NCBI GenBank assembly: GCA_003223515.1
Contig: QHVI01000046.1
Coordinates: forward strand, 1-42,740
Source of the DNA: Candidatus Angelobacter sp. Gp1-AA117
GTDB taxonomy: Bacteria; Acidobacteriota; Terriglobia; Terriglobales; Acidobacteriaceae
Length of the DNA: 42,740 nucleotides
Direction: 5' to 3'
Part shown: one piece after another, positions 10,503 to 41,624 of the stretch
How positions within the stretch are numbered: the first letter of the stretch is position 1
How the letters are laid out: each line of letters begins with the position of its first letter
Notes under the pieces: model-generated
Databases searched by the model: none
What the model saw: the letters and a program-made list of their open reading frames with translations, nothing else
What the model was told of the DNA's origin: nothing
Made by a program: the position numbers and the translations under genes

Positions 10503-11417
10503 TTATGAGGCTGAGCTGACTCTTTTCACCACCTCGTGCGCACTCTCACGCCCGATGCTGTCGGTAGCGAACTCCCGGAAAACTACGGAGTCGCCGGTGA
10601 TCTTTTCCACCAGGCCGTTGAAGACCTGGTCGTTTTCCCGCAGAAAATATGTGTGCCGTGAATGATTCACCACCACCGCCATCATCTCTCCCGTGGTGTT
10701 GTCCTTCACCGTTCCCTGCACGATGAGTTCAGGAATGTAGAGGCACTTCTTTCCGGTCGAACAGCTCGGTCCCGTCTGTCCCACAATCACATTGCGAATG
10801 GGGCTGACGAACGGATCGCGCCGCCCTGTGGCGGAAATCTTCCTGGCTGCCGGCTTGGCCGGCACCGGAGTCGCCCTGGCAGTCTTCTGCGTTATTTTCG
10901 GCTCCTGCTTTTTGGCAACTGCCGGTTTTTTCGGAGCTGTCTTGGGCGTTACCGCCACTACAGCAGGCTTCTTCTGTGCTGTAGCGGGTTTCGCAGCAAA
11001 CGGGCCGCCTTTGGACGCGCTGGTTTTCTGCTTCGATTGCGGGGCCACCGCAACCACCGGAGTCTTGCCGGCCGGAGCAGATTTCACCGAAGCAGCGCCG
11101 GTCTTGGTGGCAGAAGCCGCTGTGCCGGATTTCGGCTGGGCATTCACCACTATCGGCTGGCTCTTCTGTGTGCCCGATTTGCTCTGCGAGTTTCCGCCGG
11201 CAGCGGACTTCTGCGCGGTTGCGCCTGTCTTGGTGTCTTTGGGGGTAGTCACCTTGATGGGCGTGCCGGGTGTAGTCTTGTTGTCTTTCTTCTGCGTATC
11301 TTTCTTTTGCGCATCACTGGTTTTCGGCTGAGCAGTCGAGTTGGCAGAATTTGTGTTCTGCGCTGCGGCGCTCACCGCCAGGGCTGCTGCAATGGCCAAA
11401 ATTTGAATCAGCTTCAT
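10503..11417 (-). CDS. pilP: Type IV pilus assembly lipoprotein-like PilP
   Basis: Start chosen at ATG 11417, with AAAGGGA upstream and a signal peptide (MKLIQILAIAAALAVSAAAQ); the frame extends upstream to 11522 but would overlap pilO. 304 residues. A very long Lys/Thr/Pro/Ala-rich low-complexity spacer covers about residues 22-190. The PilP domain follows: RRDPFVSPI, then the beta-rich ELIVQGTV, MAVVVN and TYFLREND segments. PilP is the inner-membrane/periplasmic partner that links PilN-PilO to the secretin PilQ. No Cys lipobox is visible, so it may be secreted or membrane-anchored rather than a lipoprotein. The spacer is far longer than in proteobacterial PilP (about 175 residues total). 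Confidence 0.85.
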   Translation of the reverse strand: MKLIQILAIAAALAVSAAAQNTNSANSTAQPKTSDAQKKDTQKKDNKTTPGTPIKVTTPKDTKTGATAQKSAAGGNSQSKSGTQKSQPIVVNAQPKSGTAASATKTGAASVKSAPAGKTPVVAVAPQSKQKTSASKGGPFAAKPATAQKKPAVVAVTPKTAPKKPAVAKKQEPKITQKTARATPVPAKPAARKISATGRRDPFVSPIRNVIVGQTGPSCSTGKKCLYIPELIVQGTVKDNTTGEMMAVVVNHSRHTYFLRENDQVFNGLVEKITGDSVVFREFATDSIGRESAHEVVKRVSSAS

Positions 11418-26503: not shown

Positions 26504-29176
26504 TTACATTGCGAGTGTCGCTGTCAGCATCCCTTCCTGCGGAACGCCGAAGCGGAAGCCGGCGCGCACGAACAAATCTTTCATGTTGCCGTTTTCGGCC
26601 AGCATCGCTCCCTGCAGCTCTGAGATTCCTTCTTTGCGCGCAATCTGGATCATGCATTCCAGCAGATGGCTGCCCAGTCCACGATTCTGGAATCTGTCGG
26701 CCACGATAAAGGCCACTTCCGCGCCTTCTCCGGTGTGATTGCGGACCAGGCGGCCGATGCCGGCGATGTGCCTGGCGCCATCTTCGCCGGTATATTCAGC
26801 CACCAGCGCGATCTCGCGGTCATAATCGATGAAGCACTTGGTAATGAGCCGTTCGTGAGAGGTGCGCACGTCCAGTTTCAGCGGCAGGAAATAACGCAGG
26901 TAGACGCTTCTTTCCGAAAGCTGATGATGAAATTCCACCACCAGCGGCTCATCCTGCGGGCGAATCGGACGCAGCGTGAAAGACACGCCATCTGATGATT
27001 GCCATGACGACATGTACTGCGTGGGATAAGGACGGATCGCAGGCCGGGGCAACTGTTCATCGCGAACGCCGGCTGGATGGAGAATGACTCGGGCGTCGAG
27101 CGCCAGCAGCGTGTCCGGTCCAGCCAGCAGTGGATTGATCTCAATATCTGCGATGCGCGGATTTTCGACCACCAGTTCGCTGAAGCGCACCAGCAGTTCT
27201 TCCAGGCGTGCCAGGTCAACCGGCTTGCGCCCCCGCGCTCCCTGCAATGCCTGAAAGATGTGGGTGTTCTCCATCAGCCGTCGCGCCAGCGTGGTAGTGA
27301 GCGGCGGCAAAGCATGGGCGCGGTCCCGCATGACTTCCACAAGTTGTCCGCCGAGACCAAAGACCAGCACCGGCCCGAATTGCGGATCGCTGGAGCTGCC
27401 AAGAATCAACTCATAACCGAAATCCTGAATCATGGGCTGAAGGGTCACTCCCTGAAATGCTCCTCCCGGAGCAAAGGCCGCCTGAATCTCCGCATAAGCG
27501 GAGCGCACGCCAGCCGCGTCTTCCAGCTTGAGCTTCACCCCGCCTTGATCCGATTTGTGCGTGACCGTTCCGGAATGCAGCTTGAGCACCACGGGATAGC
27601 CGATGCTCCCGGCTGCAGCAACGGCTTCATCAGCGGTGAGAGCCAATTTCATTTCCGTGGCGGGCAAGTCGTAGGCGGCCAGCACCTGCTTCGATTCGAA
27701 TTCGCTGAGCACCGCGCGCTGCTGCGCCTGCGCCGCTGCCGTGATCTGCGCCACGCGCGCCGGACCGTTCTCGATCATCTCGCTGGAGAACACCGGCGTT
27801 TCATACAAAGCCTGCAGATCGAGGCTGTAGCGCCACATGTAGGCGAAGCTGCGGGCGGCGCTGTCAGGATATTCAAATGTGGGAATGCTGGCTTCGTTCA
27901 AAACGTTCGCGGCAAGCTGCATGCGGCTGCCGCCCATCCAGCTGGCCAGCAGCGGCTTCTTGATGGATGCAGCGGCACGGGTCAGCATTCCTGCCGCCAT
28001 TTCCGGTTCAGTCATTCCCTGGGGCGCCAGAATGGAGAGCACTGCATCGCAATTCTTGTCGCGGGCAACCAGCACCAGCGCTTTGGTGTAAACATCAGGC
28101 GTGCAGTCGCCGAGCGTATCGACAGGGTTCGCATGGCTCCACGCATCAGGGAGAAGCTGATTGAGTGCTTCTCTGGTTTCGGGCGCAAGCTGGGCAAGTT
28201 GCCCACCGTTGGCGAGCAGCGCGTCGGTGGCCAGCACGCCTGCGCCTCCGGCATTGGTCACCACTGCCAGTCGCGGCCCTTCAGGACGCGGCTGCTTTCC
28301 CAGCACCTCCGCCATGTCAAACAACTCAGAGATGCTGGCCACGCGCAGGATTCCGCAGCGCCGGAAGGCCGCTTCAAACACTTCATCTGATCCGGTCATG
28401 GCTCCGGTGTGCGAAGCTGCCGCCTTGCGCGCCGCCTCGGTTCTTCCCGGCTTGATGATGATGATGGGTTTCTTGATCGCCACCTCGCGGGCCGCCGAAA
28501 GAAAGCTGCGGGCGTTCCCGATGGATTCCATATAGATGAGAATGCTGGTCGTATACGGATCATCGCCGTAGTGATAGATCAGGTCGCCCCAGTCCACGTC
28601 GAGCATGGAACCCACGGAGACGAAGCCGCTGAAGCCCACGTTTTCACGGCGGCTCCAGTCGAGAATGGCGGTGCACAGTGCGCCGCTCTGGCTCAGGAAT
28701 GCAAGGCTTCCCGGCAGCGCATTCGATTGCGCAAAGGTGGCATTCAACCCGGTGCGCGGATTCATCACCCCCAGGCAATTGGGCCCGATCACCCGCAGAT
28801 TGCTTGCGGCCAGCACCTGCCTGACCTGCTTCTCGCGTGCCAGACCATCGGCGCCGTGTTCGGCAAAGCCCGCGGAGATGACAATCGCGCCGCCCACCCC
28901 TGCATTCACGCACTCCTGCAGCACGCCGGGAACCGTGGGAGCAGGAGTAATCACCACCGCCAAATCTACCTTCTCGCCAATCGCGGTGATGCTGGGATAA
29001 CAGCGGATGCCCAGCACGTTGGTCCGCGTGGGGTTTACTGGAAAAACAGTTGCGCCAAAAGGCTGCTCCAGCAGGTTACGCAACACCGTGCGGCCTACGC
29101 TGGCAGGTTTCTCGGTAGCGCCTATCACGGCAACGCTGGCGGGATGAAAGATAGCTGTAAGCGGACTATGGGACAA
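26504..29176 (-). CDS. ADP-forming acyl-CoA synthetase fused to GNAT acetyltransferase (Pat-like)
   Basis: 890 residues. Start is a TTG at 29176 with GAGG six bases upstream. Order: CoA-binding Rossmann domain ([15 protein letters not shown] near 14-28, [11 protein letters not shown] near 130), succinyl-CoA ligase-like flavodoxin domain with [10 protein letters not shown] near 161 and the SHTGAMTG motif whose H256 aligns with the phosphohistidine of succinyl-CoA synthetase, an ATP-grasp domain (about 490-700, [15 protein letters not shown]), and a C-terminal GNAT domain (about 735-890, [20 protein letters not shown] holding the acetyl-CoA loop). This is the architecture of the protein lysine acetyltransferases Pat/YfiQ, which regulate acetyl-CoA synthetase; the kept His means acyl-CoA synthetase activity is also possible. 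Single gene next to the stress island. Confidence 0.92.
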
Positions 29177-29470: not shown

Positions 29471-30646
29471 TTATGTAGTAGCCAGCTTCACCGATTCCGC
29501 CTCATCTTCTGCGAACGCTGGTTTGCGGATGACAATCTTCCCGCTCTCGAAGAGGTGCTTCAATCTGCGGAGGTCTGCATCCAGAATGGTTTCAGCGCCG
29601 CCCCCGAACAGCTCTGCAACGAAGCGTCCGAGTATTCCCGCGGGCGGACGATAGAACATGCGTATGCGCACCCGGGTGCTGGCATCATAGTTCGGATCGA
29701 AACGCACGCTGCCGAAATTTCCGATGCCTGAACCCGGAAGGCTCTTGAATTCCACCAGGGTGTTTGGCACCGCCTTGGTGATCTTGCCTTCCCAGCCAAA
29801 GGGAATACTTGCGGGGCCCACCATGCTCCAGCGGTACAGGTTTTCTCCCAGGCGCTCAACTTTGGCGATGTGTGAAAACGCTTCAACATAGTTTTCCGGG
29901 TTCACCCAGAAATCGTAAATATCAGAGATCGGAGCATTGATCCGGATCGTCTTATCGATTTCGAATCCGGGGCTCGTTTCATCCAGCGCGACTGTGGCCC
30001 ACATACGATGCTTCATGGTGCTGTGCAGCAACATGCCTGCGCCCAGCAGCGCCGTCGCTTTCCCGGGATTATCTTTGCGCCGCCAGCCATAAAGCGCGAG
30101 TCCAGCACCGGCAGCGCCCACCAGCAATCGCCTGGTTGGACTCCAGTGCAGCCGGGTTTGTCGGCGCGCCTCATGAACCGGGTTGGCCGGCGCGGCCGTT
30201 GCTTCCTCCGGCTCCGCAATTTCCAGGTGGTCATAGATATTCTTAACGCCGGGGGTGGATTCCACCGTGCGGATCAGGTGATGGATTTCATCGATGTGCA
30301 CCCGGCCCCACAATGTGGCCGCGCCGTGGTCGCATAAAACATGGATCTTCCGCGGAGCGCTGACCACCCGGCCCATCCGCGAACGGATGCGCTCCTCCAC
30401 CACCCTGTCAGAAGCTTCATCCACCGTCACCCGTGAACGGATGCGCGCGGCCAAGCCGGCGAGATGGTTCTGGCTGTCACGCAGGGTTTTCATTCCTTCA
30501 TGCCGGGTCTTTTCCAACAAACGCCCGGCAGTCCTGGCTACGCTGGAGCGGCGGCGCTCGCCCTTTTCGGGATCAGTGAAGTACCACGCCACTGCCGCAC
30601 CTATGCCGCCCAGCAACATACACGTTCCAAGTTTCTTCGTGTTCAT
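29471..30646 (-). CDS. BON plus SRPBCC domain membrane protein
   Basis: Start set at ATG 30646, with GAGGAG upstream; the frame extends nine codons further. 391 residues. The N-terminus (MNTKKLGTCMLLGGIGAAVA then WYFTDPEKGERRR) is a YtxH/DUF-like membrane anchor. A BON domain follows (about 75-145; VEERIRSRMG, HVLCDHGAATLWGRV, IRTVESTPGVKNIYDHLEI). After a linker there is a hydrophobic pair (about 170-215), then an SRPBCC/polyketide-cyclase-like domain (about 225-355: DKTIRINAPISDIYDFWVNP, GPASIPFGWEGKI). BON domains bind phospholipid or bridge envelope parts; SRPBCC domains bind hydrophobic ligands. It is co-transcribed with the universal stress protein 23 bases upstream, behind a CRP-like site. 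Function unknown. Confidence 0.85.
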   Translation of the reverse strand: MNTKKLGTCMLLGGIGAAVAWYFTDPEKGERRRSSVARTAGRLLEKTRHEGMKTLRDSQNHLAGLAARIRSRVTVDEASDRVVEERIRSRMGRVVSAPRKIHVLCDHGAATLWGRVHIDEIHHLIRTVESTPGVKNIYDHLEIAEPEEATAAPANPVHEARRQTRLHWSPTRRLLVGAAGAGLALYGWRRKDNPGKATALLGAGMLLHSTMKHRMWATVALDETSPGFEIDKTIRINAPISDIYDFWVNPENYVEAFSHIAKVERLGENLYRWSMVGPASIPFGWEGKITKAVPNTLVEFKSLPGSGIGNFGSVRFDPNYDASTRVRIRMFYRPPAGILGRFVAELFGGGAETILDADLRRLKHLFESGKIVIRKPAFAEDEAESVKLATT

Positions 30647-30669
30647 AAAAATCTCCTCAGCAGGCCACA

Positions 30670-31554
30670 TCACGACAAATCGCGGACGGTAAGCACCGCT
30701 GCCGGAGCCGTGCTGACCACTTTGTAAGTCACGCCCGTGCGGAAATGCGTGTTGAACTGCTTGTTGTTGGGCAATCCCAGCACAATCAGGTCGGCGCCAT
30801 TCTGGCGGGCATAGTCGATGATCTGTTCGGCCGGGTCGCCTTCTTTGATCATGAATTCCGGCGTGCTGACGAAACCGGCGTTTTCGGGCACCAGTCTCCT
30901 CAGTTCATCCATTACGAATTGAATGAGGCGCGCGCGGTCCCCATATTCACGCGTTCCTTCAGGAAGGACATGTAGCAGTGTCAGCCTGGCATGGCGTTCC
31001 AGCGCCAGCGAGACCGCGTAGCTGATGGCCGCTTCAGTTGGCCGGGAAAGATCGGTAGCAAAGAGAATATTGCTGATGCTCAGCTCTCTCTTTGGCTGCG
31101 GCGGCACGGCCGGGCCTACCGTCAGCACCGGGCAGGTTGCCTGCCTGAAAATGGTCTCTGCCGTTGATCCCAGCAGTAACCGCTCAAAGCCTTTCCTGCC
31201 GTGCGTGCCGGTCACGATCAGATCGATGCCGTGCTCACGCGACCAGCGCGGTACCGCATCTTCAGGCGCTTCCTGGGTCACCAGCGCGGTGTACTCCGGG
31301 CCGGAATCCTTCACCATCCTGGCCAGTTGCTCCCCGGCCTGCACTTCAATCTGTTTCAGGATGTCCGGCATGGTCGGCACTTCCAGCTCGGTTGGCAGAT
31401 ACGGAACTACGGCGTGTGCCGGATAGATGTGCGCGTTGAACTGGCGCGCGAATGCCATGGCATAGGTAAACGCTGCGCGGGATGTTTCCTTGAAATCGGT
31501 AAGAAATAGTATGTTCTTGAATGAAATGCTTGTAGAGGCTTCTAAGACTTTCAT
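30670..31554 (-). CDS. Universal stress protein, two UspA domains
   Basis: Start at ATG 31554, preceded by GGAGGAAACATC; 294 residues. Two UspA domains: domain 1 begins FKNILFLTDFKETSRAAFTY and contains GTHGRKGFERLLLGSTAETI, the G-x2-G-x9-G(S/T) ATP-binding loop; domain 2 begins ISNILFATDLSRPTEAAISY but its ligand loop (LGLPNNKQFNTHF) is degenerate. Usp proteins bind ATP or AMP and help survive starvation, redox and oxygen stress. It leads a two-gene transcript with the BON/SRPBCC protein, downstream of a CRP-like palindrome. Confidence 0.93.
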   Translation of the reverse strand: MKVLEASTSISFKNILFLTDFKETSRAAFTYAMAFARQFNAHIYPAHAVVPYLPTELEVPTMPDILKQIEVQAGEQLARMVKDSGPEYTALVTQEAPEDAVPRWSREHGIDLIVTGTHGRKGFERLLLGSTAETIFRQATCPVLTVGPAVPPQPKRELSISNILFATDLSRPTEAAISYAVSLALERHARLTLLHVLPEGTREYGDRARLIQFVMDELRRLVPENAGFVSTPEFMIKEGDPAEQIIDYARQNGADLIVLGLPNNKQFNTHFRTGVTYKVVSTAPAAVLTVRDLS

Positions 31555-31631
31555 GATGTTTCCTCCTCTTCGATCTTGAGTCATGGCCCCTGGTTAACTC
31601 AATAGTTTGCGATGGATCACACTTCGGCTGC

Positions 31632-31647
31632 TGTGATGTGGGTCACG
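31632..31647. promoter_or_regulatory. CRP/FNR-type palindrome A (usp-BON operon)
   Basis: TGTGA-TGTGGG-TCACG; one mismatch from TGTGA-N6-TCACA. Centre 85 bases before the Usp ATG. No convincing -10 at class II spacing. Confidence 0.6.
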
Positions 31648-31660
31648 CCTGTGGAATCAA

Positions 31661-31702
31661 GTGATCGGGTGATCGGGTCATCTGGAGATCGGGTCATCGG
31701 GC
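31661..31702 (+). repeat. Short GATCGGGT tandem repeat
   Basis: GTGATCGGGTGATCGGGTCA is followed by another GATCGGGTCATCGGG; four GATCGGG/CATCGGG units in 42 bases. Confidence 0.55.
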
Positions 31703-31770
31703 TTTAGAAGTTCAATTAATCAAAGGCCAAACCCTGGCAACACAGCACAGCGGTACCGCAATCAGTTTTC

Positions 31771-31944
31771 TTGCCGCTGATGAACGCTGATGAACGCTGA
31801 AAAAGCAAATCCAACTACAGATCAACACAGAGCAGCCTAGCCGCAACCAAAGGCAAAACCTTTGAAACACAGAGGAACAGTGTAAGCGGAGGCAATAAGA
31901 ATCAAAACCTTACCACGGAGGCACGGAGAACATTGAGATACAAC
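31771..31944 (+). repeat. Dispersed purine-rich repeat, two adjoining blocks
   Basis: 31771-31832 starts with TTGCCGCTGATGAACGCTGA and repeats TGAACGCTGA; 31851-31944 holds ACACAGAGGAACAG and ACCACGGAGGCACGGAGAAC. The 426-base gap 31555-31980 otherwise holds only the CRP-like site A and the GATCGGGT repeat. Confidence 0.6.
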
Positions 31945-31980
31945 ACGAAGAAAAGCGAGAATGAGCTCAAATGTGAGTAC

Positions 31981-32583
31981 TTACTCGGAAGTGAGCGCTG
32001 CGGCAGCGGCTTTGTGCGCCTGGAGTTGCAGGCTGCGCAGACGAAATGCCAGGACCAGGATGGTAACGCCGCTGAATCCGGAGTAGAGCGCGATCCAGGA
32101 GAGCACCGCCAGTTCGGTAGCCACTTTGCTCAGCAGAAGCCCGGCGCCAAACAGGATTGAAGCGATGCTGAAGACCGCCAGGAGCCATTCGTCCTTCATG
32201 TGCCGGCGCAGGTGCAAGGCGATGACGAACTCCACGGTCCCAACAAACACGGCCCACCACGCCATCACGTAAATGAGATGGAAAAGACTGAGATCAGGCA
32301 GAACTGCCACCACGACTCCACAGATGGACGCCCCAAGTCCGTCGAGCAGCAGCAACCACCGTTCGCGCCCATGTACCGGGCCGCGCATTCCCGCACCCAG
32401 GGTGAAAAGACCGGCAGTGAACGCAAAAAGGCCAAAGAGAACTACCACGGAGGCGGAGGCGATGGCTCCCAGCAGCCATGAGAAAGCCGCTTCCCGCAAG
32501 GAAAAAGCGAGCAGGGCAAACAGCAGGGCGAAAACTCCACGCAAGGCCAGAAGCCACCAGTTGTGAATCAACGTGCGTAGCAC
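31981..32583 (-). CDS. HdeD/DUF308 family membrane protein
   Basis: 200 residues, start GTG at 32583 with GGAGG five to six bases upstream (an ATG four bases earlier is out of frame). Six hydrophobic segments, the repeat architecture of HdeD/DUF308: residues LLALRGVFALLFALLAFSL near 12-30, LVLFGLFAFTAGLF-like segment near 45-60, WWAVFVGTVEFVIALHLR near 108-125. HdeD-family proteins are linked to acid resistance in enteric bacteria; the mechanism is unknown. It is expressed divergently from a Usp gene across two CRP-like sites. Confidence 0.88.
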   Translation of the reverse strand: MLRTLIHNWWLLALRGVFALLFALLAFSLREAAFSWLLGAIASASVVVLFGLFAFTAGLFTLGAGMRGPVHGRERWLLLLDGLGASICGVVVAVLPDLSLFHLIYVMAWWAVFVGTVEFVIALHLRRHMKDEWLLAVFSIASILFGAGLLLSKVATELAVLSWIALYSGFSGVTILVLAFRLRSLQLQAHKAAAAALTSE

Positions 32584-32632
32584 ATATGCCTCCAGGAAAC
32601 CTGAATTATGACTCTGCCGCCAGCGCAGATTC

Positions 32633-32648
32633 AGTGATGCCCGTCACA
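32633..32648. promoter_or_regulatory. CRP/FNR-type palindrome B (HdeD-like gene)
   Basis: AGTGA-TGCCCG-TCACA. On the minus strand CATAAT (32605-32610, five of six) would be a -10 with the start near 32598, placing the palindrome centre at about -42. Confidence 0.65.
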
Positions 32649-32673
32649 TCCCCGCCGGAAACAATCATATCGT

Positions 32674-32689
32674 TGTGATTGCAGTCACA
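32674..32689. promoter_or_regulatory. CRP/FNR-type palindrome C (usp gene)
   Basis: TGTGA-TTGCAG-TCACA, a perfect consensus. A -10-like CATGAT at 32711-32716 predicts a start at 32723, placing the centre at -41.5, the exact class II position. It lies within a GTG extension of the usp frame, an argument against that longer start. Confidence 0.7.
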
Positions 32690-32737
32690 GATTATAGAAA
32701 GAGTGAGGTGCATGATGCATGCAGGGAGGAATTCTAT

Positions 32738-33643
32738 ATGAACGCCCGAGCTGCGGTAGTTCCAATTCTCCCCGCGATTCAACTGAAGAGAATTCTTTAT
32801 GCAACGGATTTCTCAGAAGCTTCGCGGAAAGCTTTACCCATGGTTGCAGCGGTGGCGCGTAAATACCATGCACGGGTATTCCTGGCGCATATCTGGCAGC
32901 CCATACCTTATCCCATGGCTACTCCTGAAGCCTTGACTGCATTGGAGCAGTTGCAGGAACGTGAAGTGAGAAAAGACGCCGAAGAGCTCTCGCCCCTGCC
33001 CCAACTCTCCGGACTGGAAGTCGAGATCGTCACCGCCTCCGGTGATCCCAGGGAAGAACTGCAGCACATTGTGCATGACCGCAATATTGATCTGGCCATC
33101 CTCAGCACTCACGGCCGCACCGGCTTCAGACATCTGATGATGGGATCGGTAGCGGAAGAATTGTTCCGCAATCTGCCCTGCCCGGTGCTCACCATTGGGC
33201 CACACATTGCTGATCGCTTCACGGAAAACACTCCGATCCGGGAAATCCTGTTTGCAACCGATCTTTCTCCGGAGTCGCGTGCTGTGTTTCCATTCCTGGC
33301 GGCGCTGGCCGATGAGTATGATGCCCGCATCACCGTGTTGCATGTGCTTCCGGAAGAAACCGGGACCAATCCCGATGTGCGCCGGCTCTCCGCTCCCTTG
33401 CGCGATCACATGGAGCAGATGTTCCGCGATGAAGTTGCGCCCATGTGCAAAGTGGATTTCGTGATTGACAGCGGCGACGCGGCAGAAAAGATCCTGGCTT
33501 ATGCCAGGTACCTGAATGCGGAACTGATTGGCTTCGGCGTGCGCCACACGTCAGACATTGTGACTCATCTGCAGAAGACAATCGCTTACTGCGTGGTAAT
33601 GCAGGCAGAATGCCCGGTGCTCACCTCCCGCGGCCAGGTGTAA
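32738..33643 (+). CDS. Universal stress protein, two UspA domains
   Basis: Start at ATG 32738 with AGGGAGGA upstream rather than the GTG at 32675, which would put the operator inside the gene. 301 residues. Domain 1 starts LKRILYATDFSEASRKALPM and holds STHGRTGFRHLMMGSVAEEL, an intact ATP-binding loop with PCPVLTIGP at the end; domain 2 starts IREILFATDLSPESRAVFPF and lacks the glycine loop (FGVRHTSDIVTHL). One of three double-domain Usp proteins in the island; they are clearly paralogous but not recent copies. Confidence 0.93.
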   Translation: MNARAAVVPILPAIQLKRILYATDFSEASRKALPMVAAVARKYHARVFLAHIWQPIPYPMATPEALTALEQLQEREVRKDAEELSPLPQLSGLEVEIVTASGDPREELQHIVHDRNIDLAILSTHGRTGFRHLMMGSVAEELFRNLPCPVLTIGPHIADRFTENTPIREILFATDLSPESRAVFPFLAALADEYDARITVLHVLPEETGTNPDVRRLSAPLRDHMEQMFRDEVAPMCKVDFVIDSGDAAEKILAYARYLNAELIGFGVRHTSDIVTHLQKTIAYCVVMQAECPVLTSRGQV

Positions 33644-33649
33644 AGGCCT

Positions 33650-33685
33650 TAACCGCAGAGAACGCAGAGCGCGCAGAGGTAGAAG
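33650..33685 (+). repeat. Dispersed purine-rich repeat, short copy
   Basis: TTAACCGCAGAGAACGCAGA then GCGCGCAGAGGTAGAAG, between the Usp gene and the convergent ATPase gene. Confidence 0.55.
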
Positions 33686-33719
33686 ATTAGTGGTAAGGTC
33701 TGGGGTTGCTGACTGCCAA

Positions 33720-35624
33720 CTAAAAGTCCGCCAGGTTGAACCTGACCATGCCCACACGCAAGGCGTTCAAAACCGCAAACAGGTCGATGAACTCCTGCGC
33801 GATGGCGCCGGTCAGCGGTGGAAGATGTCCGGTGGCTGCCGCGATCATGCCGGCTGCGCTGAGCAGCATGCCACCCACGGCGCTTTGCAGCGAGATCTTT
33901 TTCATACGGCGGCCAATGTGAATCAGCTCATCGATTTTGCGCAATGACGAATCGAGCACCACCGCGTCGGCTGATTCCGAGATCGCTCCGCTGCTTCCAC
34001 CCAGCGCCACGCCCACCGTGGCTGCCAGCATCGCAGGCGCATCGTTGATGCCATCGCCGGCAAACAGGGTTTTGGTTTTTCGGGTCTCGGCCCGTACAAA
34101 TTCCAGCTTCTCCTCCGGGCTCCTGCCGGAATAGATCTCGCTGATTCCCACCAGGCCGCCCATGCGCTGCACTTCTGCCTCTTTGTCTCCGGAGAGCAGT
34201 ACCAGCCGCTCTGCGTGGTGCTTTGGACGAAGATGGCTGATAAACGGCCGGCTGTCACTCTTCACCTCATCCTGAAATGTAAAGAGCGCCGCGAATGCGC
34301 CATCCACAAACAGCAGGCATTCCAGTCCTGTAGTGCTGGGCGGCAACCCGGTGATCTCGCCGTATTCACGGGCCGTATTCCGCCTTCCGGTAATCTGAAT
34401 CTTGTGCCCTTCAATGGTGCCTCGGAGCCCGTCTCCGGGCTGTTCGGTCACATTTTCCGGCGGAGAGATAATCACGTGTCTTTCGTGTGCGGTCTCCAGT
34501 ATGCCTTTGGCCAGAGGATGGCGTGAATAGGTTTCCAGACTGGCGGCCAGCGCCAGCGCTTCATCTTCCTCATAGGGTGGAGAGCAAAAGATTCCTGCCA
34601 GCACAGGTTGTCCATAGGTAAGTGTTCCTGTCTTGTCGAAGATGAAGGTGCGGCATGCATCAATCTGCTCCAGCACCGCCGCGTTTCTTACCACGATGCC
34701 GCGCCGCGCTGCCAGCGACACACCCCCGAGAATGCCCACCGGAATCGCGAGCAGCAGGGGACATGGTGTTGCAATCACCGCCACGGCCAGAAAACGCTCC
34801 GGGGTTCCACCGATGATCCACCCGGCAATGGCAATAACAATCGCCAGCGGCGTGTACCATGTGCCCAGCCGGTCGGCAATGCGCCGTATCCTGGGCTGGT
34901 TTTGCTCAGTAGCTTCGATGACCCGGAGAATGCGGGCATAACGCGAATCTTCGGCGACCCGCGTGGCCCGAATCTTCAAAACAGCCTCGCCATTCACCGC
35001 GCCGGAGAGCACCAGAGATCCCGGTGCCTTCGCCAGTTGGAATGGCTCGCCTGTCAGGAACGATTCATCCATTCGGCCGTGGCCTTCCATCACCTCTCCA
35101 TCCACCGGGCAGATTTCATGGGGAAAGATCAACAGCCTGTCTCCCGGCCTTATTTGCACGGCAGGGACATTGACGAAGCTGGCGCCTTCGCCGAGATGGG
35201 CCTCGGTAGGCATGCGCCGGGCCAGTGCCGCGAGGACTGATGAAGCTCTGCGGGTGGCGTAGTTCTCCAGCGCCTGGCCACCTGAAAGCATCAGAATAAC
35301 CACTGCTGCGACCAGGTATTCCCCCATCAGCACTGCGCTTACGATCGAGACACCGGCAATCAGGTCTGAGCCAAATTGCCCATGAATAAGTTTTTTCGCA
35401 AGATCCAGCAGAAGCGTGAAGCCTCCGGCCAGCGCTGCATACAACGGCCAGTTGGCCTGCTGTGGCTCCCAGTTGAAGGCATAGCGCATAAGCAAATGCG
35501 CCACAATGCAGAGCAGTACGAACAGGGCGATCCAGGTTTCGCGTGAGTAATTCGGCTGCGAAGCGGCCTTGTACAGCGGGCCGCTCATCGGCGAGGAGGT
35601 TTGAACCTGTTCCGCTGTAGACAT
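33720..35624 (-). CDS. P1B-type metal ATPase with TPC motif
   Basis: 634 residues without an N-terminal metal-binding HMA domain. Actuator motif TGEP at 191-194, TM motif TPCPLLLAIP (TPC at 286-288), phosphorylation motif DKTGTLTYG from 330, SRHPLAKGI (the HP motif of P1B ATPases) near 365-375, and GDGINDAPAM in the P domain. A TPC motif is described for P1B-5 ATPases such as Nia, which export Fe and Ni; Cu or Zn pumps carry CPC. Iron(II) or nickel export is therefore my best guess, not shown. It has its own promoter behind CRP-like site D: TATACT at 35642-35647, start near 35635, giving a leader of only about ten bases. Confidence 0.88.
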   Translation of the reverse strand: MSTAEQVQTSSPMSGPLYKAASQPNYSRETWIALFVLLCIVAHLLMRYAFNWEPQQANWPLYAALAGGFTLLLDLAKKLIHGQFGSDLIAGVSIVSAVLMGEYLVAAVVILMLSGGQALENYATRRASSVLAALARRMPTEAHLGEGASFVNVPAVQIRPGDRLLIFPHEICPVDGEVMEGHGRMDESFLTGEPFQLAKAPGSLVLSGAVNGEAVLKIRATRVAEDSRYARILRVIEATEQNQPRIRRIADRLGTWYTPLAIVIAIAGWIIGGTPERFLAVAVIATPCPLLLAIPVGILGGVSLAARRGIVVRNAAVLEQIDACRTFIFDKTGTLTYGQPVLAGIFCSPPYEEDEALALAASLETYSRHPLAKGILETAHERHVIISPPENVTEQPGDGLRGTIEGHKIQITGRRNTAREYGEITGLPPSTTGLECLLFVDGAFAALFTFQDEVKSDSRPFISHLRPKHHAERLVLLSGDKEAEVQRMGGLVGISEIYSGRSPEEKLEFVRAETRKTKTLFAGDGINDAPAMLAATVGVALGGSSGAISESADAVVLDSSLRKIDELIHIGRRMKKISLQSAVGGMLLSAAGMIAAATGHLPPLTGAIAQEFIDLFAVLNALRVGMVRFNLADF

Positions 35625-35667
35625 GAGACACCGCTGATTTCAGTATAGAGAAATAGACAGTAGCCGG

Positions 35668-35683
35668 AGTGATGGCAGTCACA
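35668..35683. promoter_or_regulatory. CRP/FNR-type palindrome D (P1B-ATPase)
   Basis: AGTGA-TGGCAG-TCACA, centre about 40-41 bases before the start predicted from TATACT (35642-35647, minus strand, five of six). A weaker palindrome, ACTGA-TCCACG-TCAGA, lies at 35702-35717. Confidence 0.7.
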
Positions 35684-35718
35684 CTCGAAAATCTGTACCA
35701 GACTGATCCACGTCAGAG

Positions 35719-36189
35719 TTAGATTTTATCGTGCGACTGAATGCCTTTCTGGCGGCAATGCTGGCTCAATACCTCCCGCAAGGTCCATTGAATCCTGCTG
35801 GAAGCCTCATGCATGAGCACGTCTTCTGAGGGCGGCAATTCCAGCAGGTGAAGCGTCTGCAAGGCATTGCGGATGTGGTGATTGACCAGGGCAACGGTTT
35901 CACACTTCCTGATGACCTCATTCCTGAAGGTAACGTAGTAGTAGATGCTGAGCCCCAGGGTAATGGCCGCGCCGGAAGCCGACGCAATGAGGATCTGCAC
36001 GAGAATGGGCCCATCCCAGGCAAACAGTGCAATCACCATGGCCAGGAAAGCCCCCACTCCAATCCACAGAGGCGCAAGCCGGTGAAAGAATTCTGTCCTG
36101 CTCATTACTGATTGGAGGCACGCGGATCGCGCCGGTTGCGGCAGGCTCGCAACGCTCGCCGTGAGAACTATGCTGTTAGATTTTGACAT
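35719..36189 (-). CDS. Two-TM protein with isolated histidine-kinase-like H-box
   Basis: 156 residues; the ATG at 36189 is kept because a GGGGG tract lies upstream, while the internal ATG (36105) has no ribosome-binding site. Two TM segments (about 37-56 and 62-82) are followed by a cytoplasmic helix with NHHIRNALQTLHLL near residues 103-116, which resembles the H-box of HisKA/DHp domains (H-x-IRN-L). No ATP-binding domain follows; the protein ends about 40 residues later. It could be a phosphotransfer or dimerisation stub, or a decayed kinase. It sits behind CRP-like site E. I do not recognise a named family. Confidence 0.7.
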   Translation of the reverse strand: MSKSNSIVLTASVASLPQPARSACLQSVMSRTEFFHRLAPLWIGVGAFLAMVIALFAWDGPILVQILIASASGAAITLGLSIYYYVTFRNEVIRKCETVALVNHHIRNALQTLHLLELPPSEDVLMHEASSRIQWTLREVLSQHCRQKGIQSHDKI

Positions 36190-36256
36190 GAATCTGGCAG
36201 GCCCCCATCATCCCTGAGATGCAGGACTAATGTACTGAATCGGTTAGGGGGCTGGA

Positions 36257-36272
36257 TGTGATAGCCGTCACA
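36257..36272. promoter_or_regulatory. CRP/FNR-type palindrome E (H-box membrane protein)
   Basis: TGTGA-TAGCCG-TCACA, perfect consensus. On the minus strand TACATT (36229-36234) would be a -10 with the start near 36222, centre about -42. Confidence 0.7.
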
Positions 36273-36327
36273 CTGCCGACGCGCCATGCGAACCAATCCT
36301 CGTTTTTTGCTGCTGCTAAGGATGGTG

Positions 36328-36768
36328 CTATGCACGGCCCATGATGAGGTCATGTGTCTGCAGGTAAGCCAGGGCTTCTTCAAATGCCAGCCGGTGGACA
36401 GCTTCATCATGGCGGATCTGGGAGAACTGCCCGGCTACTTCCAGATCACCGTCTTCCAGGGCTTCGCGGGCGAATACCATGTAAAGCTGATCAATCTCAA
36501 ACGATTCCTCTTGAATGGCATGACTCAGATTCTGCTCGTCTGTGCCGGTCAGGCCGGCAAGGCTGGCCACTTTGGCGAAATGTTCAAGATATTCATGATC
36601 GGCGGTCCGATCAAAGAGTTCAGCCAACTCGGTATGACCATGGCGGCGCGCAGCTTTGGCAAAGAGCTTGAGCTTTACGTAAGTGAAGGCTTCATCCTTC
36701 ATGGCGGTCATCAGGTTCCTGCGGCTGCGGGCAGAGATGCTTTGGGGGATAGACGGTTTGATTCCCAT
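36328..36768 (-). CDS. Rubrerythrin-like diiron protein
   Basis: Start at ATG 36768, preceded by GGGAGAATT; a longer frame to 36954 would overlap the divergent gene and holds no family sequence. 146 residues, one four-helix bundle, without a rubredoxin domain. Likely iron ligands: E26 (MKDEAFTYVK), E59/E62/H63 (DHEYLEHFAK), E88 (QEESFEIDQLY) and E122-x2-H125 (RHDEAVHR). Rubrerythrins reduce hydrogen peroxide in low-oxygen cells. The first ExxH spacing is not quite canonical (E59-x3-H63), so the ferritin-like family is sure but the exact subfamily is not. Shares the divergent intergenic CRP-like site F. Confidence 0.8.
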   Translation of the reverse strand: MGIKPSIPQSISARSRRNLMTAMKDEAFTYVKLKLFAKAARRHGHTELAELFDRTADHEYLEHFAKVASLAGLTGTDEQNLSHAIQEESFEIDQLYMVFAREALEDGDLEVAGQFSQIRHDEAVHRLAFEEALAYLQTHDLIMGRA

Positions 36769-36837
36769 ATAGAATTCTCCCAGTCCCATTCTCCCGCTAT
36801 GGGGCAGGTTCGTACCGTGCCCTAGATCACAGCAGCC

Positions 36838-36853
36838 AGTGATCTCCGTCACA
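36838..36853. promoter_or_regulatory. CRP/FNR-type palindrome F (divergent rubrerythrin / DUF883)
   Basis: AGTGA-TCTCCG-TCACA, between two divergent genes. -10 matches on either side are weak (CATTCT at 36875-36880 plus strand at class II spacing), so I cannot tell which promoter it serves, perhaps both. Confidence 0.6.
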
Positions 36854-36901
36854 TCTGTCCTTCTGCGCGCGTCGCATTCTTGAAGCAGGAAGGAGAACCC
36901 C

Positions 36902-37171
36902 ATGACAAACATTGCAGCAGTTGAAGAACAGTTGAAAGCCCATTTTGACGACACTCTCGATAAAGCCAGGGAAATTTCGGAGAAAACCTATCGCAACCTC
37001 GGCCGTGGCATTCAGCGCGTCAAGGTAGCCGGAGAAGAAGCCGTTGAGGATATGCGTGATGGAATCAAAAAGCGTCCTTTGGCCACCGTGGCTGCCGTAG
37101 GCGCGGGAACGTTTGCTCTTGGTCTGCTGACTGGATGGCTGCTGAGCCGGAAGATGTCTTCCCGGTACTAA
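36902..37171 (+). CDS. ElaB/YqjD-like DUF883 membrane-anchored protein
   Basis: 89 residues with AGGAAGGAG upstream. An amphipathic, charged helical region (about 1-60) is followed by KKRPLATVAAVGAGTFALGL and a short tail after one TM segment. This is the ElaB/YqjD/DUF883 layout: a C-terminal inner-membrane anchor with a helical part that in E. coli YqjD binds stationary-phase ribosomes. It is divergent from the rubrerythrin-like gene across CRP-like site F and fits a stress or stationary-phase role. Confidence 0.8.
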   Translation: MTNIAAVEEQLKAHFDDTLDKAREISEKTYRNLGRGIQRVKVAGEEAVEDMRDGIKKRPLATVAAVGAGTFALGLLTGWLLSRKMSSRY

Positions 37172-37177
37172 CTGGCC

Positions 37178-37981
37178 TTATTCATACTCTGCGAGCAGTT
37201 TTCTTACCGCCTGCGCATAGGTGATGTCAGGAGGCGCGGGCGCAAACCTGGAGGAGCTTTCTTTGCGCATGATGCTGAACGTACGCAACAGGAGCATGCG
37301 TCCATGGAAATTCAGATTCATGGTGGTAATCCGCCATACTCCAGGACTGGCTTCGGCCTGGGCCAGTTCGTAATGGCCGCCTTTGGATAAGCGTCCCAGA
37401 ATTCCCCAGCCGAAGTTCACGTCTTTGAACAGGTCGCCTTGTACCCGGACGATCCTCTCGCTGGCCGGATCGATCCACAGCATCCCGCGCATGCCTTTGT
37501 AGACCTGCGCTTCCCGCGTAGGGGGATCGAATCTGGGATTGGGAGAAAAACTGAATCGCAGTTGCCCATTCTCCTCTTTTCCTGAAAACTGAAGTAAGAC
37601 GGCGTCCGGCAGTACCCGGGCCATGTTGATACGCCGCACGATTTCTTCCCGCTGGTCATTGAGCTCATCTTTTTTCGCATCGCTGTCGCGCAGGAATTTC
37701 TCCAGGCGATGCTGTTGTTTGCGCTGCTCCTCCGGGCCCAGCAGCAGGTCGTTATAAGCAACAATACGGTCCGCGCGTCCTTCATCGGTTTCGATGACCA
37801 CGCGGGTTTCTGATCCCCAGCTCTGCTCCGTACGCTCCATGAATTGAAAATGCTGGCCGGCGGACAGGCTGCTGGTTTCATGCTGGGCACAACGGCGCAG
37901 CAGGTCGGCATAATCATCTTCCGGCGCTGTCACCTGGCTCAAAGCGGGAAGACACACCAGCAGCAGAATCAGTTGTCTCAT
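37178..37981 (-). CDS. Secreted protein, LolA-like in layout, unknown function
   Basis: 267 residues with a short signal peptide (MRQLILLLVCLPALSQ). The mature part alternates beta strands and a charged helical insert (about 90-130, many Lys/Glu/Gln); segments FQFMERTEQSW, YKGMRGMLWIDPASERIVRV and WRITTMNLNFHGRMLLL resemble the outer-membrane lipoprotein-sorting fold used by many acidobacterial secreted proteins. No ribosome-binding site was found; a TATATT at 37994-37999 would leave a six-base leader. It is convergent with the DUF883 gene (6 bases) and divergent from the usp-ldh pair. Confidence 0.7.
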   Translation of the reverse strand: MRQLILLLVCLPALSQVTAPEDDYADLLRRCAQHETSSLSAGQHFQFMERTEQSWGSETRVVIETDEGRADRIVAYNDLLLGPEEQRKQQHRLEKFLRDSDAKKDELNDQREEIVRRINMARVLPDAVLLQFSGKEENGQLRFSFSPNPRFDPPTREAQVYKGMRGMLWIDPASERIVRVQGDLFKDVNFGWGILGRLSKGGHYELAQAEASPGVWRITTMNLNFHGRMLLLRTFSIMRKESSSRFAPAPPDITYAQAVRKLLAEYE

Positions 37982-38015
37982 AAGGTCAGGATAAATATAG
38001 AGGATCGGCCCATCA

Positions 38016-38053
38016 GGTGATAGAAATCACTCTACACTGTGATTTCTATCACT
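38016..38053. promoter_or_regulatory. Two CRP/FNR-type palindromes, G and H
   Basis: G is GGTGA-TAGAAA-TCACT (38016-38031), H is TGTGA-TTTCTA-TCACT (38038-38053). Their centres are 22 bases apart, two helical turns. They are also exact reverse complements: GTGATAGAAATCAC (38017-38030) and GTGATTTCTATCAC (38039-38052) form a 14-bp inverted repeat with an 8-base loop. Site H centre is 60 bases before the Usp ATG. Confidence 0.7.
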
Positions 38054-38105: not shown

Positions 38106-38984
38106 ATGTCAGCCCCGATACAAGTTCCGGTCGAATCCACTTTACAGCTAAAAAATATCCTCTATGCCACTGACTTTTCCGGCTATGCCCGCCAGGCCCT
38201 GCCATATGCGGAAGCATTGGCGCGCAAGTTTGGAGCCTGCATCCATCTGTGCCACGTGGTCACGCCTTCGGCGCTGGCGGTCAGTGCTCCGGAAGTAGCT
38301 CCCTACCTCTACACCGCGGAACATGAAAGCAGCGCCATCGAATTGCAGGACATGGCCGCTGTGATCCGGAAAAAAGGAATGCAAGTCCAGGTGCAGATGC
38401 CTTCAGGCCCGCTGAGCGATGTATTACCTGCCGTGATCCATGAAAATGCAATCGATCTGGTAATTGCCGGCACGCACGGCCATACGGGGATGAAACGCTT
38501 CCTGCTTGGCTCCGCTGTAGAGGAGATAGGCCGCGTTGCTTCCTGCCCGGTACTGACTGTGGGGCCGTTACTGTCACTGCGCCATGAGATCAGGTTCCGG
38601 AACATTTTGTATGCCACCGATCTTTCCGGGGAAAGCCGCAAGGCTCTGCCTTATGTCGCGGCAATTGCCGAGGAGTATGGAAGCATAGTCACCGTGCTCC
38701 ATGTGCTTCCCCCCGGCCATGAAACTCCCGTGGAGAAAAGAGCCCAGGCCCGGTGGAAATCACAGGAAATGCAGTCAGCCTTTGGCGCCGCCCTCGATCA
38801 GGTGCGGCATGAATTCATTGTTGATTTTGGCGGCGCCCCAGACACCATCTTGCGGGTTGCGGCGGAAAAACGCGCAGCACTGATTGCTCTTGGTCTGGGT
38901 AATCCAGGGGCCATTCATCTGCGCTCCAGCACCCCTTACAAGATTATGGCGCAGGCCCATTGTCCAGTGTTGACCGTACGTTAG
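38106..38984 (+). CDS. Universal stress protein, two UspA domains
   Basis: 292 residues, AGGAG eight to nine bases before the ATG. Domain 1 starts LKNILYATDFSGYARQALPY and holds the intact loop GTHGHTGMKRFLLGSAVEEI; domain 2 starts FRNILYATDLSGESRKALPY and has a degenerate loop (LGLGNPGAIHLRSSTPYKI). The same pattern (first domain ATP-binding, second not) holds in all three Usp proteins of the island. The dehydrogenase gene begins 21 bases later, so they form an operon. Confidence 0.93.
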   Translation: MSAPIQVPVESTLQLKNILYATDFSGYARQALPYAEALARKFGACIHLCHVVTPSALAVSAPEVAPYLYTAEHESSAIELQDMAAVIRKKGMQVQVQMPSGPLSDVLPAVIHENAIDLVIAGTHGHTGMKRFLLGSAVEEIGRVASCPVLTVGPLLSLRHEIRFRNILYATDLSGESRKALPYVAAIAEEYGSIVTVLHVLPPGHETPVEKRAQARWKSQEMQSAFGAALDQVRHEFIVDFGGAPDTILRVAAEKRAALIALGLGNPGAIHLRSSTPYKIMAQAHCPVLTVR

Positions 38985-39005: not shown

Positions 39006-39818
39006 ATGAATTCCATTCATCCGGTAAAGATTGCTGTTGTTGGAGCTGGAAACGTGGGCGCCAGCTTTGCTTACACCTTGCTGCTGAGCGGACTGGCCAC
39101 CGAGATTATCTTGATTGATAAGAACCGGGCTCGCGCCGCCGGTGAAGTTATGGATCTTCACTACGCTGTTCCCTTCGCTCACCAGACTGAAATCCGCGCT
39201 GGTGATTTGCGCGATACCGCGGGCGCCGCCATCACGGTAATCTGCGCGGGATTACGGCAAAAACCCGGGCAGAGCGAAATGGATCTGCTGACTGTTACTG
39301 ACAGTGCCCGCTTCTGCTATCTCCTGGGCAACCACTTCCATGTTGATCCTGCCAGCGTGCAGGCCTATGTGATGGGTGCGCACGGCGAGACAGAATTCCC
39401 GGCCTGGTCTTCCGCCAATATTGCCGGAGTGCCGATTCGCGAGATGTGCAGCGCGCACGGCTGCAATCCTGCGGTGCTGGATGAACTCTTTCACCAGACC
39501 CGTGAGGCCAACAATGGAATGATCGACTACAAAGGATCGAGTTGCTACGCGATAGCAGCAGCACTGACCCGGATTGCCGCCTCCATCCTCAGAAACGAGA
39601 AGCGCATTTTTACCGTGTCTACGGTCCTGCAAAGAGAATACGGCGTATCAGAAGTGGCCTTGAGTGTGCCCACGGTCATGGGCGGCAGTGGCGTCGAGCG
39701 CATCCTGCATGTGGGCCTGAGCGATCAAGAGGTAGGCCAATTCCTGGCCTGCGGCCGCGAGGTCCAGCACGGCATCGAAGAGGCAGAATTTGTAGTGCAG
39801 GCAGGGATGAGGAGTTAG
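39006..39818 (+). CDS. Lactate/malate dehydrogenase with an internal deletion, probably inactive
   Basis: 270 residues; GGGAGG precedes the ATG. The NAD-binding start IAVVGAGNVGASFAYTLLLS and the C-terminal half (AYVMGAHGETEFPAW with the catalytic H126) are of the L-lactate/malate dehydrogenase family, normally about 310-320 residues. At residues 95-97 the sequence jumps from GQSEMDLL to TVTDSARFCYLLG. In family members about 50 residues lie between these points, including the mobile substrate loop end, the TNPVD motif with the active-site Asn, and the strand to VIGSGT. D99 and R102 survive. The frame is intact, so this is an in-frame loss, not a frameshift. Likely a decaying gene or an assembly collapse; a retained non-enzymatic role cannot be excluded. 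Confidence 0.8.
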   Translation: MNSIHPVKIAVVGAGNVGASFAYTLLLSGLATEIILIDKNRARAAGEVMDLHYAVPFAHQTEIRAGDLRDTAGAAITVICAGLRQKPGQSEMDLLTVTDSARFCYLLGNHFHVDPASVQAYVMGAHGETEFPAWSSANIAGVPIREMCSAHGCNPAVLDELFHQTREANNGMIDYKGSSCYAIAAALTRIAASILRNEKRIFTVSTVLQREYGVSEVALSVPTVMGGSGVERILHVGLSDQEVGQFLACGREVQHGIEEAEFVVQAGMRS

Positions 39819-41402: not shown

Positions 41403-41624
41403 TTATGCAGCCCGACGCTGCGGTTCTGCAACTCGCTCATTTGAGACGTGGATCACAGCTTCCTGTTCGTCGGCCTGCCCCACACGAACCAGTACATCGT
41501 TCATGGTGTCCTGGATGCGAGTGTTGGGCTTGTGAAACTTACGGGTCGCCTTGGAAATGAGCTGGCAGAGCAGGTACCGGTTCCGTACCGGACGAAGTGA
41601 GTTATAAATAAGATCAGAACGCAT
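41403..41624 (-). CDS. rpoZ: RNA polymerase omega subunit-like protein
   Basis: 73 residues with AGGAGAGG upstream. NRYLLCQLISKATRKFHKPN matches the conserved omega core (NRFELV-ASKRARQL) in position and spacing, with a TRIQDTMNDVLVRV continuation. Omega helps fold the beta-prime subunit and is also a ppGpp-binding partner in Proteobacteria. The length suits omega. Sequence divergence from the textbook family keeps this at moderate confidence. Confidence 0.6.
   Translation of the reverse strand: MRSDLIYNSLRPVRNRYLLCQLISKATRKFHKPNTRIQDTMNDVLVRVGQADEQEAVIHVSNERVAEPQRRAA

Follow-up and report, generated by a model that had tools for sequence, protein, structure and literature searches.

A stretch of 42,740 nucleotides from Candidatus Angelobacter sp. 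Gp1-AA117 (contig QHVI01000046.1), referred to as the window, carries an island of stress genes in which a palindrome resembling TGTGA-N6-TCACA recurs between positions 31,632 and 38,053. The locus raises the question whether these palindromes are operators of one regulon, which protein reads them and which signal it conveys. The first-pass annotation had proposed a single regulon of a CRP/FNR-family regulator, perhaps for low oxygen or redox stress. A CRP/FNR-family regulon is borne out by the genome-wide excess of sites, their intergenic placement, their class II spacing to −10 elements and a regulator cluster with the motif in each gap. The palindrome almost certainly marks a real regulon of dozens of promoters. 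Taken together, the sites probably serve as operators, mostly of class II, in an oxygen-responsive regulon that spans the genome and whose most likely reader is a CRP/FNR-type protein named RegA in this work. That one regulator alone reads the sites as a single regulon is no more than likely.

A pattern scan of the window recovered all eight palindromes at the coordinates given by the first-pass annotation. They have the form GTGAYNNNNRTCAC with frequent outer T and A, and all eight share the exact 14-base core GTGATNNNNRTCAC. Measured against TGTGA-N6-TCACA, the sites at 32674 and 36257 have no mismatch, those at 31632, 32633, 35668, 36838 and 38038 have one and the site at 38016 has two. With up to two mismatches allowed, this pattern matched the window 26 times versus 16.9 expected matches, and 26 was reached in 2 of 100 shuffles. 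The loose 16-mer is merely weakly enriched and, therefore, the exact core is the signal. A ninth GTGAYNNNNRTCAC was absent from the window in an exact-core search and all eight lie within the island. The earlier statement that there are no further copies in the window thus stands for the exact core, but not for weaker versions, which occur at 36816 and 41442. The latter (TGAGACGTGGATCACA, 41442-41457) has one mismatch and is located outside the island, approx. 160 bp upstream of rho.

A site had also been claimed for every intergenic region of the island. This is correct for the promoter-capable gaps (6/6), but not for the convergent gaps 33644-33719 and 37172-37177 or the 21-bp gap between a universal stress protein (Usp) gene and a lactate dehydrogenase (LDH)-like gene, where no site was found. 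Site 1 (TGTGATGTGGGTCACG, 31632-31647) is situated upstream of the Usp gene 30670-31584 (−). Four sites are placed at class II distance from a gene, namely site 2 (AGTGATGCCCGTCACA, 32633-32648) for the DUF308/HdeD-like gene (−), the exact site 3 (TGTGATTGCAGTCACA, 32674-32689) for the Usp gene 32738-33643 (+), site 4 (AGTGATGGCAGTCACA, 35668-35683) for the P1B-ATPase gene (−) and the exact site 5 (TGTGATAGCCGTCACA, 36257-36272) for the open reading frame (ORF) 35719-36189 (−). In agreement with the spacing noticed earlier at four promoters, the −10-like hexamers CATAAT (32605-32610, −), CATGAT (32711-32716, +), TATACT (35642-35647, −) and TACATT (36229-36234, −) begin 22 to 24 bases past the respective cores at 32634 (−), 32675 (+), 35669 (−) and 36258 (−). 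At the remaining island promoters, the best hexamer in this range is weaker or equal. Site 6 (AGTGATCTCCGTCACA, 36838-36853) is the near side for an 89-aa gene (+), and a weak partner site 22 bp away (CGTGCCCTAGATCACA, 36816-36831) is the near side for the rubrerythrin-like gene (−). Sites 7 (GGTGATAGAAATCACT, 38016-38031) and 8 (TGTGATTTCTATCACT, 38038-38053) are likewise 22 bp apart and are the near sides for the ORF 37178-37981 (−) and the Usp gene 38106-38984 (+), respectively.

A motif at background frequency across the genome had been named beforehand as the result that would speak against a regulon, and the genome-wide count gave the opposite picture. The 6.48-Mb genome contains 85 distinct cores when T/C and A/G are allowed at the inner positions. 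At least one GTGAT arm (GTGATN4RTCAC) was present in 61 distinct sites versus 20 for a control with one extra spacer base (N5; 28 strand rows, hand-counted as 20 distinct sites). This spacing control was used in place of a backwards-motif control (6 rows), which contains a stop codon and is too lenient. Intergenic positions were occupied by 64 of the 85 cores, whereas five 20-kb control stretches were intergenic at 21.9% of their positions (binomial p ~2e-25). The full sites of the form TGTGAYNNNNRTCACA were almost exclusively intergenic (30 of 31 in the genome), while sites lacking both the outer T and the outer A were intergenic in only 12 of 28 cases, and that subset is therefore mostly background. 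The sites were classed with a home-made gene caller based on codon bias that missed some starts; the Usp gene at 32738 was called at 32966 and a Usp gene on contig C51 was missed. Throughout the genome's cores, the arms are conserved and the centre is variable.

The geometry of the promoters points in the same direction. When 68 site-to-gene orientations were aligned on the core, with sites between divergent genes counted twice, TANNNT was found at offset 23 in 12 of 68 and 24 times over offsets 22 to 25, in comparison to 0 to 2 matches at each of the other offsets between 1 and 67. From this −10 peak 23 bases past the core, the predicted transcription starts place the operator centre at −41.5, which is the class II position. 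A search for second sites with up to three mismatches covered the surroundings of 167 intergenic cores, taken from this genome, from its relatives and from loci of Acidiferrales. Second sites occurred 27 times at exactly 22 bp, 7 times at 23 bp and 0 to 5 times at each other spacing from 14 to 69 bp. The 27 rows correspond to 23 distinct pairs, including 36816/36838 and 38016/38038 in the window; such pairs are also present in loci L134 and L095, with two extra ones in L261 and L271. In 27 pair-to-gene orientations, the near site had the better class II −10 element in 17 cases and the far site in 4; the two were equal in the remaining 6. We read the 22-bp pairs as two dimers that would sit on the same helix face and may serve either cooperative activation or autorepression.

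The genes behind the sites were then considered as predicted targets. The genome has six Usp genes. For five of them, a site with one mismatch or none was found within 350 bp, and in the sixth (contig C51) a core at 9175 immediately precedes the gene. None of 78 control genes (0/78) bears such a site within the same distance. Pfam scans covered 40 proteins, namely 39 of the 52 listed targets (one with a longer start) and a SecA-like protein. The SecA-like protein was rejected as a target as it sits on the far side of its site. Among the 39 scanned targets, matches were obtained to pyruvate:ferredoxin oxidoreductase (PFOR), a Rieske protein, c-type and multihaem cytochromes and a cytochrome c assembly protein, further to alanine dehydrogenase/PNT, isocitrate dehydrogenase, zinc alcohol dehydrogenase, OsmC, HSP20 and radical SAM proteins as well as a multicopper oxidase, MFS transporters, a CBS protein, a P-type ATPase and a PAS histidine kinase. 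The same set also includes targets of unrelated kinds (porin, lysyl oxidase, GntR, HlyD and DUF3224) and six proteins without a match. Such a mix resembles the low-oxygen regulons of the FNR/Anr type.

The regulator had been said to be absent from the window, and indeed none of the nine and seven places found in CRP/FNR profile searches falls on contig C13, which carries the window. Six CRP/FNR genes of the genome are above the HTH_Crp_2 cut-off. The E-R motif anticipated for the recognition helix was found as R-E-x-x-x-R in at least four CRP/FNR proteins, among them RegA, RegB and one protein each on contigs C58 and C11. RegA (241 aa) is encoded on contig C64 and passes the cut-offs of both the cNMP_binding beta-roll and the HTH_Crp_2 domain with 68.6 and 71.9 bits. 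Its gene is the first in the cluster regA - short cNMP protein - Usp - regB, which contains five cores with at least one in each gap. RegA is below every NCBIfam equivalog cut-off, with 47.9 bits on PRK11161 (Fnr; cut-off 228), 57.2 bits on TransRegFnrLRhodb (FnrL of the R. sphaeroides type; cut-off 300) and 61.8 bits on PRK11753 (CRP; cut-off 266).

Cys13, Cys16, Cys25 and Cys64 (CxxCx8C plus one) are invariant in 43 of 43 aligned RegA rows, which represent 40 distinct genes (three duplicated) that were all chosen for their likeness to RegA. For this count, L128 to L135 were used from 67 loci, while the other 59 (25-32% identity) entered at most the model's alignment. The columns of C13 and C16 coincide with C20 and C23 of FNR in all 43 rows. 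The residues equivalent to the DNA contacts R180, E181 and R185 of CRP are present in 42 of 42 rows; FNR has V at the place of R180. Among 30 RegA loci of the phylum, 16 were inspected, some of them from genomes already covered; CxxCx8C was present in 15 of the 16, and Cys64 as well as the recognition pattern in all 16.

The occurrence of RegA and that of the sites are associated across genomes. In 119 genomes of the family, the own genome being excluded, the median density of full sites per Mb was 2.44 with a close RegA (56 genomes), 0.74 with a distant one (47) and 0.17 with none (16), and site density showed a rank correlation of 0.63 with the RegA E-value; these statistics ignore shared ancestry, and the cut between close and distant RegA was set after the table had been seen. 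In a sample of 148 other genomes of the phylum, at least one site was present in 17 of 18 with RegA versus 54 of 130 without it, kinship being ignored here as well. In 18 of 30 loci, the 400 bp preceding regA contain a core, and in 24 of 30 there is one anywhere in the regA locus (up to ~3.7 kb). Seven loci of relatives have longer flanks (L201, L202 and L128 to L132), and six of these carry a Usp gene in the vicinity of regA. The CoA ligase of the window has a homologue there in three loci, alongside Usp (L201, L128 and L129), and the BON/SRPBCC protein of the window has one in two (L201 and L128). Cores are situated between Usp, BON/SRPBCC and regA in the relatives' loci. In the window genome, the CoA ligase/BON-SRPBCC/Usp group and regA are on separate contigs. 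We infer from this association and from the recognition residues that RegA binds the sites and is, with good probability, their main reader.

The best-surviving alternative, though rather unlikely, is that RegB or the CRP/FNR protein of contig C58 or C11 is the main reader, or that the sites are shared, in a mixed regulon for NO, redox and oxygen. All three proteins have the R-E-x-x-x-R helix. RegB moreover contains CxxCx8C, and a core is found ~50 bp ahead of its likely start. The CRP/FNR gene on contig C11 is located beside NnrS-like and RIC/YtfE-like genes (named by eye), and a core at position 10537 of this contig, with an MFS transporter gene on one side and the RIC-like gene on the other, hints at NO stress in the same network. 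However, the sites of relatives sit at the cluster and own promoter of RegA, it is the RegA homologue that tracks site density across genomes, and contig C58 is devoid of any exact core.

A true cAMP-CRP (catabolite) system with ordinary CRP sites and cAMP as signal is very unlikely. The sites match the consensus and half-site spacing of E. coli CRP, the recognition residues of RegA are those of CRP, and the predicted structure of a 77% identical RegA homologue matches CRP structures, cAMP-CRPs being the closest solved folds. However, the cAMP contact R82 of CRP is replaced by Y in 42 of 42 RegA rows and S83 by E (40/42) or Q (2/42), whereas the column of E72 is gapped, which leaves this residue without a counterpart. 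cAMP-CRP was rejected for RegA on the basis of these contact residues. The NCBIfam CRP score is far below its cut-off and there are few targets of the sugar-catabolism kind. Chance or a non-regulatory intergenic repeat such as a REP-like element, for which one might cite the weak enrichment of the loose pattern in the window and the fact that the cores of sites 7 (38017) and 8 (38039) are reverse complements of each other, has a negligible probability and was rejected on the genome count, the spacing control, the −10 phasing and the control genes, besides the conserved arms around a variable centre, the fixed 22-bp pairs and the link of the site to one gene family across genomes.

With RegA as the preferred reader, the gene content and the cysteines are best explained by low oxygen or redox change as the signal. 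Whether oxygen is sensed through an Fe-S cluster is less certain, and we lean slightly towards it. In the proposed mechanism, a [4Fe-4S] cluster held by C13, C16, C25 and C64 would be lost in air and leave RegA idle. As oxygen drops, the cluster would form and the RegA dimer would bind TGTGAYNNNNRTCACA via its R-E-x-x-x-R recognition helices, touching RNA polymerase from its place at −41.5. Some promoters would accommodate another dimer 22 bp further up. The proposed regulon comprises genes for Usp proteins, metal pumps, electron transfer and fermentation, together with the regA cluster.

A comparison was possible with genome G047, which we take to be that of Acidobacterium capsulatum ATCC 51196. 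Its RegA homologue contains CxxCx8C; cydAB and two Usp genes are in the neighbourhood, and regA is followed by a gene for a PAS/GAF protein. A full site lies 34 bp ahead of cydA. Further sites precede another Usp gene and a multihaem cytochrome gene (both exact) as well as a phosphotransacetylase and an alcohol dehydrogenase gene (one mismatch each). Among the full sites located elsewhere, one is upstream of a by-eye homologue of an NMO-like gene that has a site in the own genome, too. No site with at most one mismatch was found within 500 bp upstream of regA. According to the published transcriptomes, usp genes of A. capsulatum 161 rise 7- and 56-fold at 0.1 µM O2, a sensor histidine kinase rises 84-fold, pta is up and adhP increases up to 14.9-fold (PMC11636273), and cydA is high throughout and climbs as oxygen drops (PMC8407424). 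These data support the low-oxygen reading by kind of gene; the support is weak, because 41% of the transcribed genes reportedly rise at 0.1 µM O2 in that experiment. The words Fnr and Crp are absent from the main texts of the A. capsulatum nanoxia papers (word search).

Besides this broad response and the limits of the density comparison, several findings weigh against an oxygen-responsive RegA regulon. Genome G133 contains RegA and lacks the full site, and G130, G145, G167 and G223 have 7 to 11 full sites while lacking a RegA at E ≤ 1e-50. G047 has nine full sites, six of which sit elsewhere, near genes without evident oxygen link, and only 4 of its 7 Usp genes have an exact core. Of six genus relatives having the island-type ATPase, just three possess a core ahead of the ATPase gene or of the operon to which it appears to belong. 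Since RegB and the proteins of contigs C58 and C11 have the same recognition residues, the reader of any single site is not fixed. Concerning the putative cluster, no cysteine was found in the RegA rows at the columns of FNR C29 or C122, so that RegA lacks an equivalent of C122, the fourth ligand of FNR; the third cysteine of RegA is three residues after the C29 column and the fourth is at position 64. The contig C58 paralogue keeps Cys64 without the N-terminal cysteines, and Cys64 may therefore play another role. In the AlphaFold2 model of the RegA homologue from L129, pLDDT is only ~34-38 for residues 1-20, where cysteines lie. Finally, TTGATN4ATCAA with at most two mismatches matched the window 29 times versus 17.5 expected matches (reached in 0 of 100 shuffles), mostly outside the island. 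Just two of the 29 loose matches coincide with island sites, none being exact, and FNR-type TTGAT boxes were rejected as TTGATNNNNATCAA has no exact match in the window despite the excess of the loose pattern.

A short protein without helix-turn-helix (HTH) domain, 142-164 aa in length, is encoded next to regA in 8 of 30 loci (e.g. L056, 2509-3003). It keeps the beta-roll and the dimer helix of RegA and stops where the HTH would start; Pfam scans of two such proteins gave cNMP_binding alone. The N-terminal CxxC..C triad is absent from all eight as called, and a cysteine at the place of Cys64 is kept in two (L100 and L109; the start in L109 was possibly called late). A core separates regA and the partner gene in 8 of 8 loci. 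Similar short neighbours occur in 4 of 16 further loci, two of them in family f24, with a core in between in 2 of the 4. That the partner forms idle heterodimers with RegA is a guess from its shape. RegA could even represent a separate Acidobacteriota class of Fe-S sensors, with the fourth ligand moved to a beta-hairpin (Cys64), a CRP-type DNA reader and exact 22-bp tandem operators, and restrained by a co-encoded partner that has lost HTH and N-terminal cysteines and whose heterodimers would be unable to bind DNA properly; we regard this as a tentative and unlikely proposal. If true, bacteria would have their own equivalent of Id-type inhibitors, here expressed from a promoter with the same operator.

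The genes of the island include a BON + SRPBCC (Polyketide_cyc2) protein gene (29471-30673, −), in which BON is slightly below the Pfam cut-off and whose homologue adjoins regA in two relatives' loci. Upstream on the same strand follow genes for a double-domain Usp (30670-31584, −) and the DUF308 (HdeD-like) protein (31981-32583, −), and then a second double-domain Usp (32738-33643, +). The P1B-type heavy-metal ATPase (33720-35624, −) is above the Cd-family cut-off. The 156-aa ORF (35719-36189, −) shows an H-box-like stretch by eye and no family match. Next to the rubrerythrin-like gene (36328-36768, −), the 89-aa gene (36902-37171, +) had been labelled DUF883; no Pfam or NCBIfam match was obtained for it at E ≤ 0.001. 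The 267-aa protein (37178-37981, −) is without family match. The third double-domain Usp gene (38106-38984, +) is in line with the LDH/malate dehydrogenase-like ORF of 270 aa (39006-39818, +). In the latter, positions 94-141 of the 141-position N-domain profile are skipped and the match jumps to the C domain; an inner part is seemingly missing. Also in the window, a CoA-ligase/ATP-grasp protein with GNAT domain is encoded at 26504-29176 (−), homologues of which (74-75%) are near regA in three relatives' loci. By its TIR/SEFIR and NACHT matches, a 961-aa protein (20946-23831, −) is a candidate NLR-like protein for anti-phage defence or signalling. Elsewhere in the genome, a dense motif island is found on contig C51 (1136-9175; eight cores in 8 kb; CBS, P-type ATPase, ADH and Usp) and another on contig C60 (226-8087; three cores in 8 kb; Rieske and cytochrome c).

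Acidobacteriota are common soil bacteria that face swings from air to near-anoxia, and published transcriptomes describe a broad nanoxia response. The present analysis defines a specific operator, proposes a regulator and lists predicted targets, all of which can be taken to a cultured species such as A. capsulatum. Judged from its residues and sites, the RegA system is a variant of FNR/CRP-family control and a member of neither FNR proper nor cAMP-CRP, because tested features of each are lacking. To our knowledge, a moved fourth cluster ligand and an HTH-less partner making idle heterodimers would, if true, be new to the CRP/FNR family. With FNR, ANR and FnrL (e.g. E. coli FNR and P. aeruginosa Anr), RegA and its predicted regulon share the CRP fold, the cysteines at C20/C23, class II sites at −41.5 and Usp plus respiratory targets. 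RegA differs in that its fourth invariant cysteine is at 64 and is not the C122 equivalent, in the third cysteine located three residues later, in R instead of V in the recognition helix and in TGTGA arms instead of TTGAT. In E. coli K-12 (L254), fnr adjoins uspE, which is the same regulator-Usp neighbourhood. E. coli CRP and the actinobacterial CRP/GlxR proteins are the best sequence and fold matches and have the TGTGA-N6-TCACA operator and the recognition residues in common with RegA; in contrast to them, RegA lacks the cAMP-contact residues, has an extra cysteine-bearing N-terminus and appears to serve other kinds of targets. The mycobacterial DosR dormancy regulon works alike, as it answers to hypoxia and includes many Usp genes, but its regulator is a LuxR-type response regulator and its operator is different. 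The lxa locus of Burkholderia cenocepacia combines several Usp genes with electron-transfer and metabolic genes and is tied to an Anr-like CRP/FNR-type regulator (PMC6127331); it is thus a multi-Usp island with this type of regulator, as in the window, but belongs to another phylum, has another gene set and, in the accessible text of the source, comes with no mention of a 22-bp tandem operator or HTH-less partner. A further comparison is the nanoxia response of A. capsulatum 161, a member of the same family according to the paper, in which usp, sensor kinase, pta and adhP transcripts rise (PMC11636273), together with cydA (PMC8407424).

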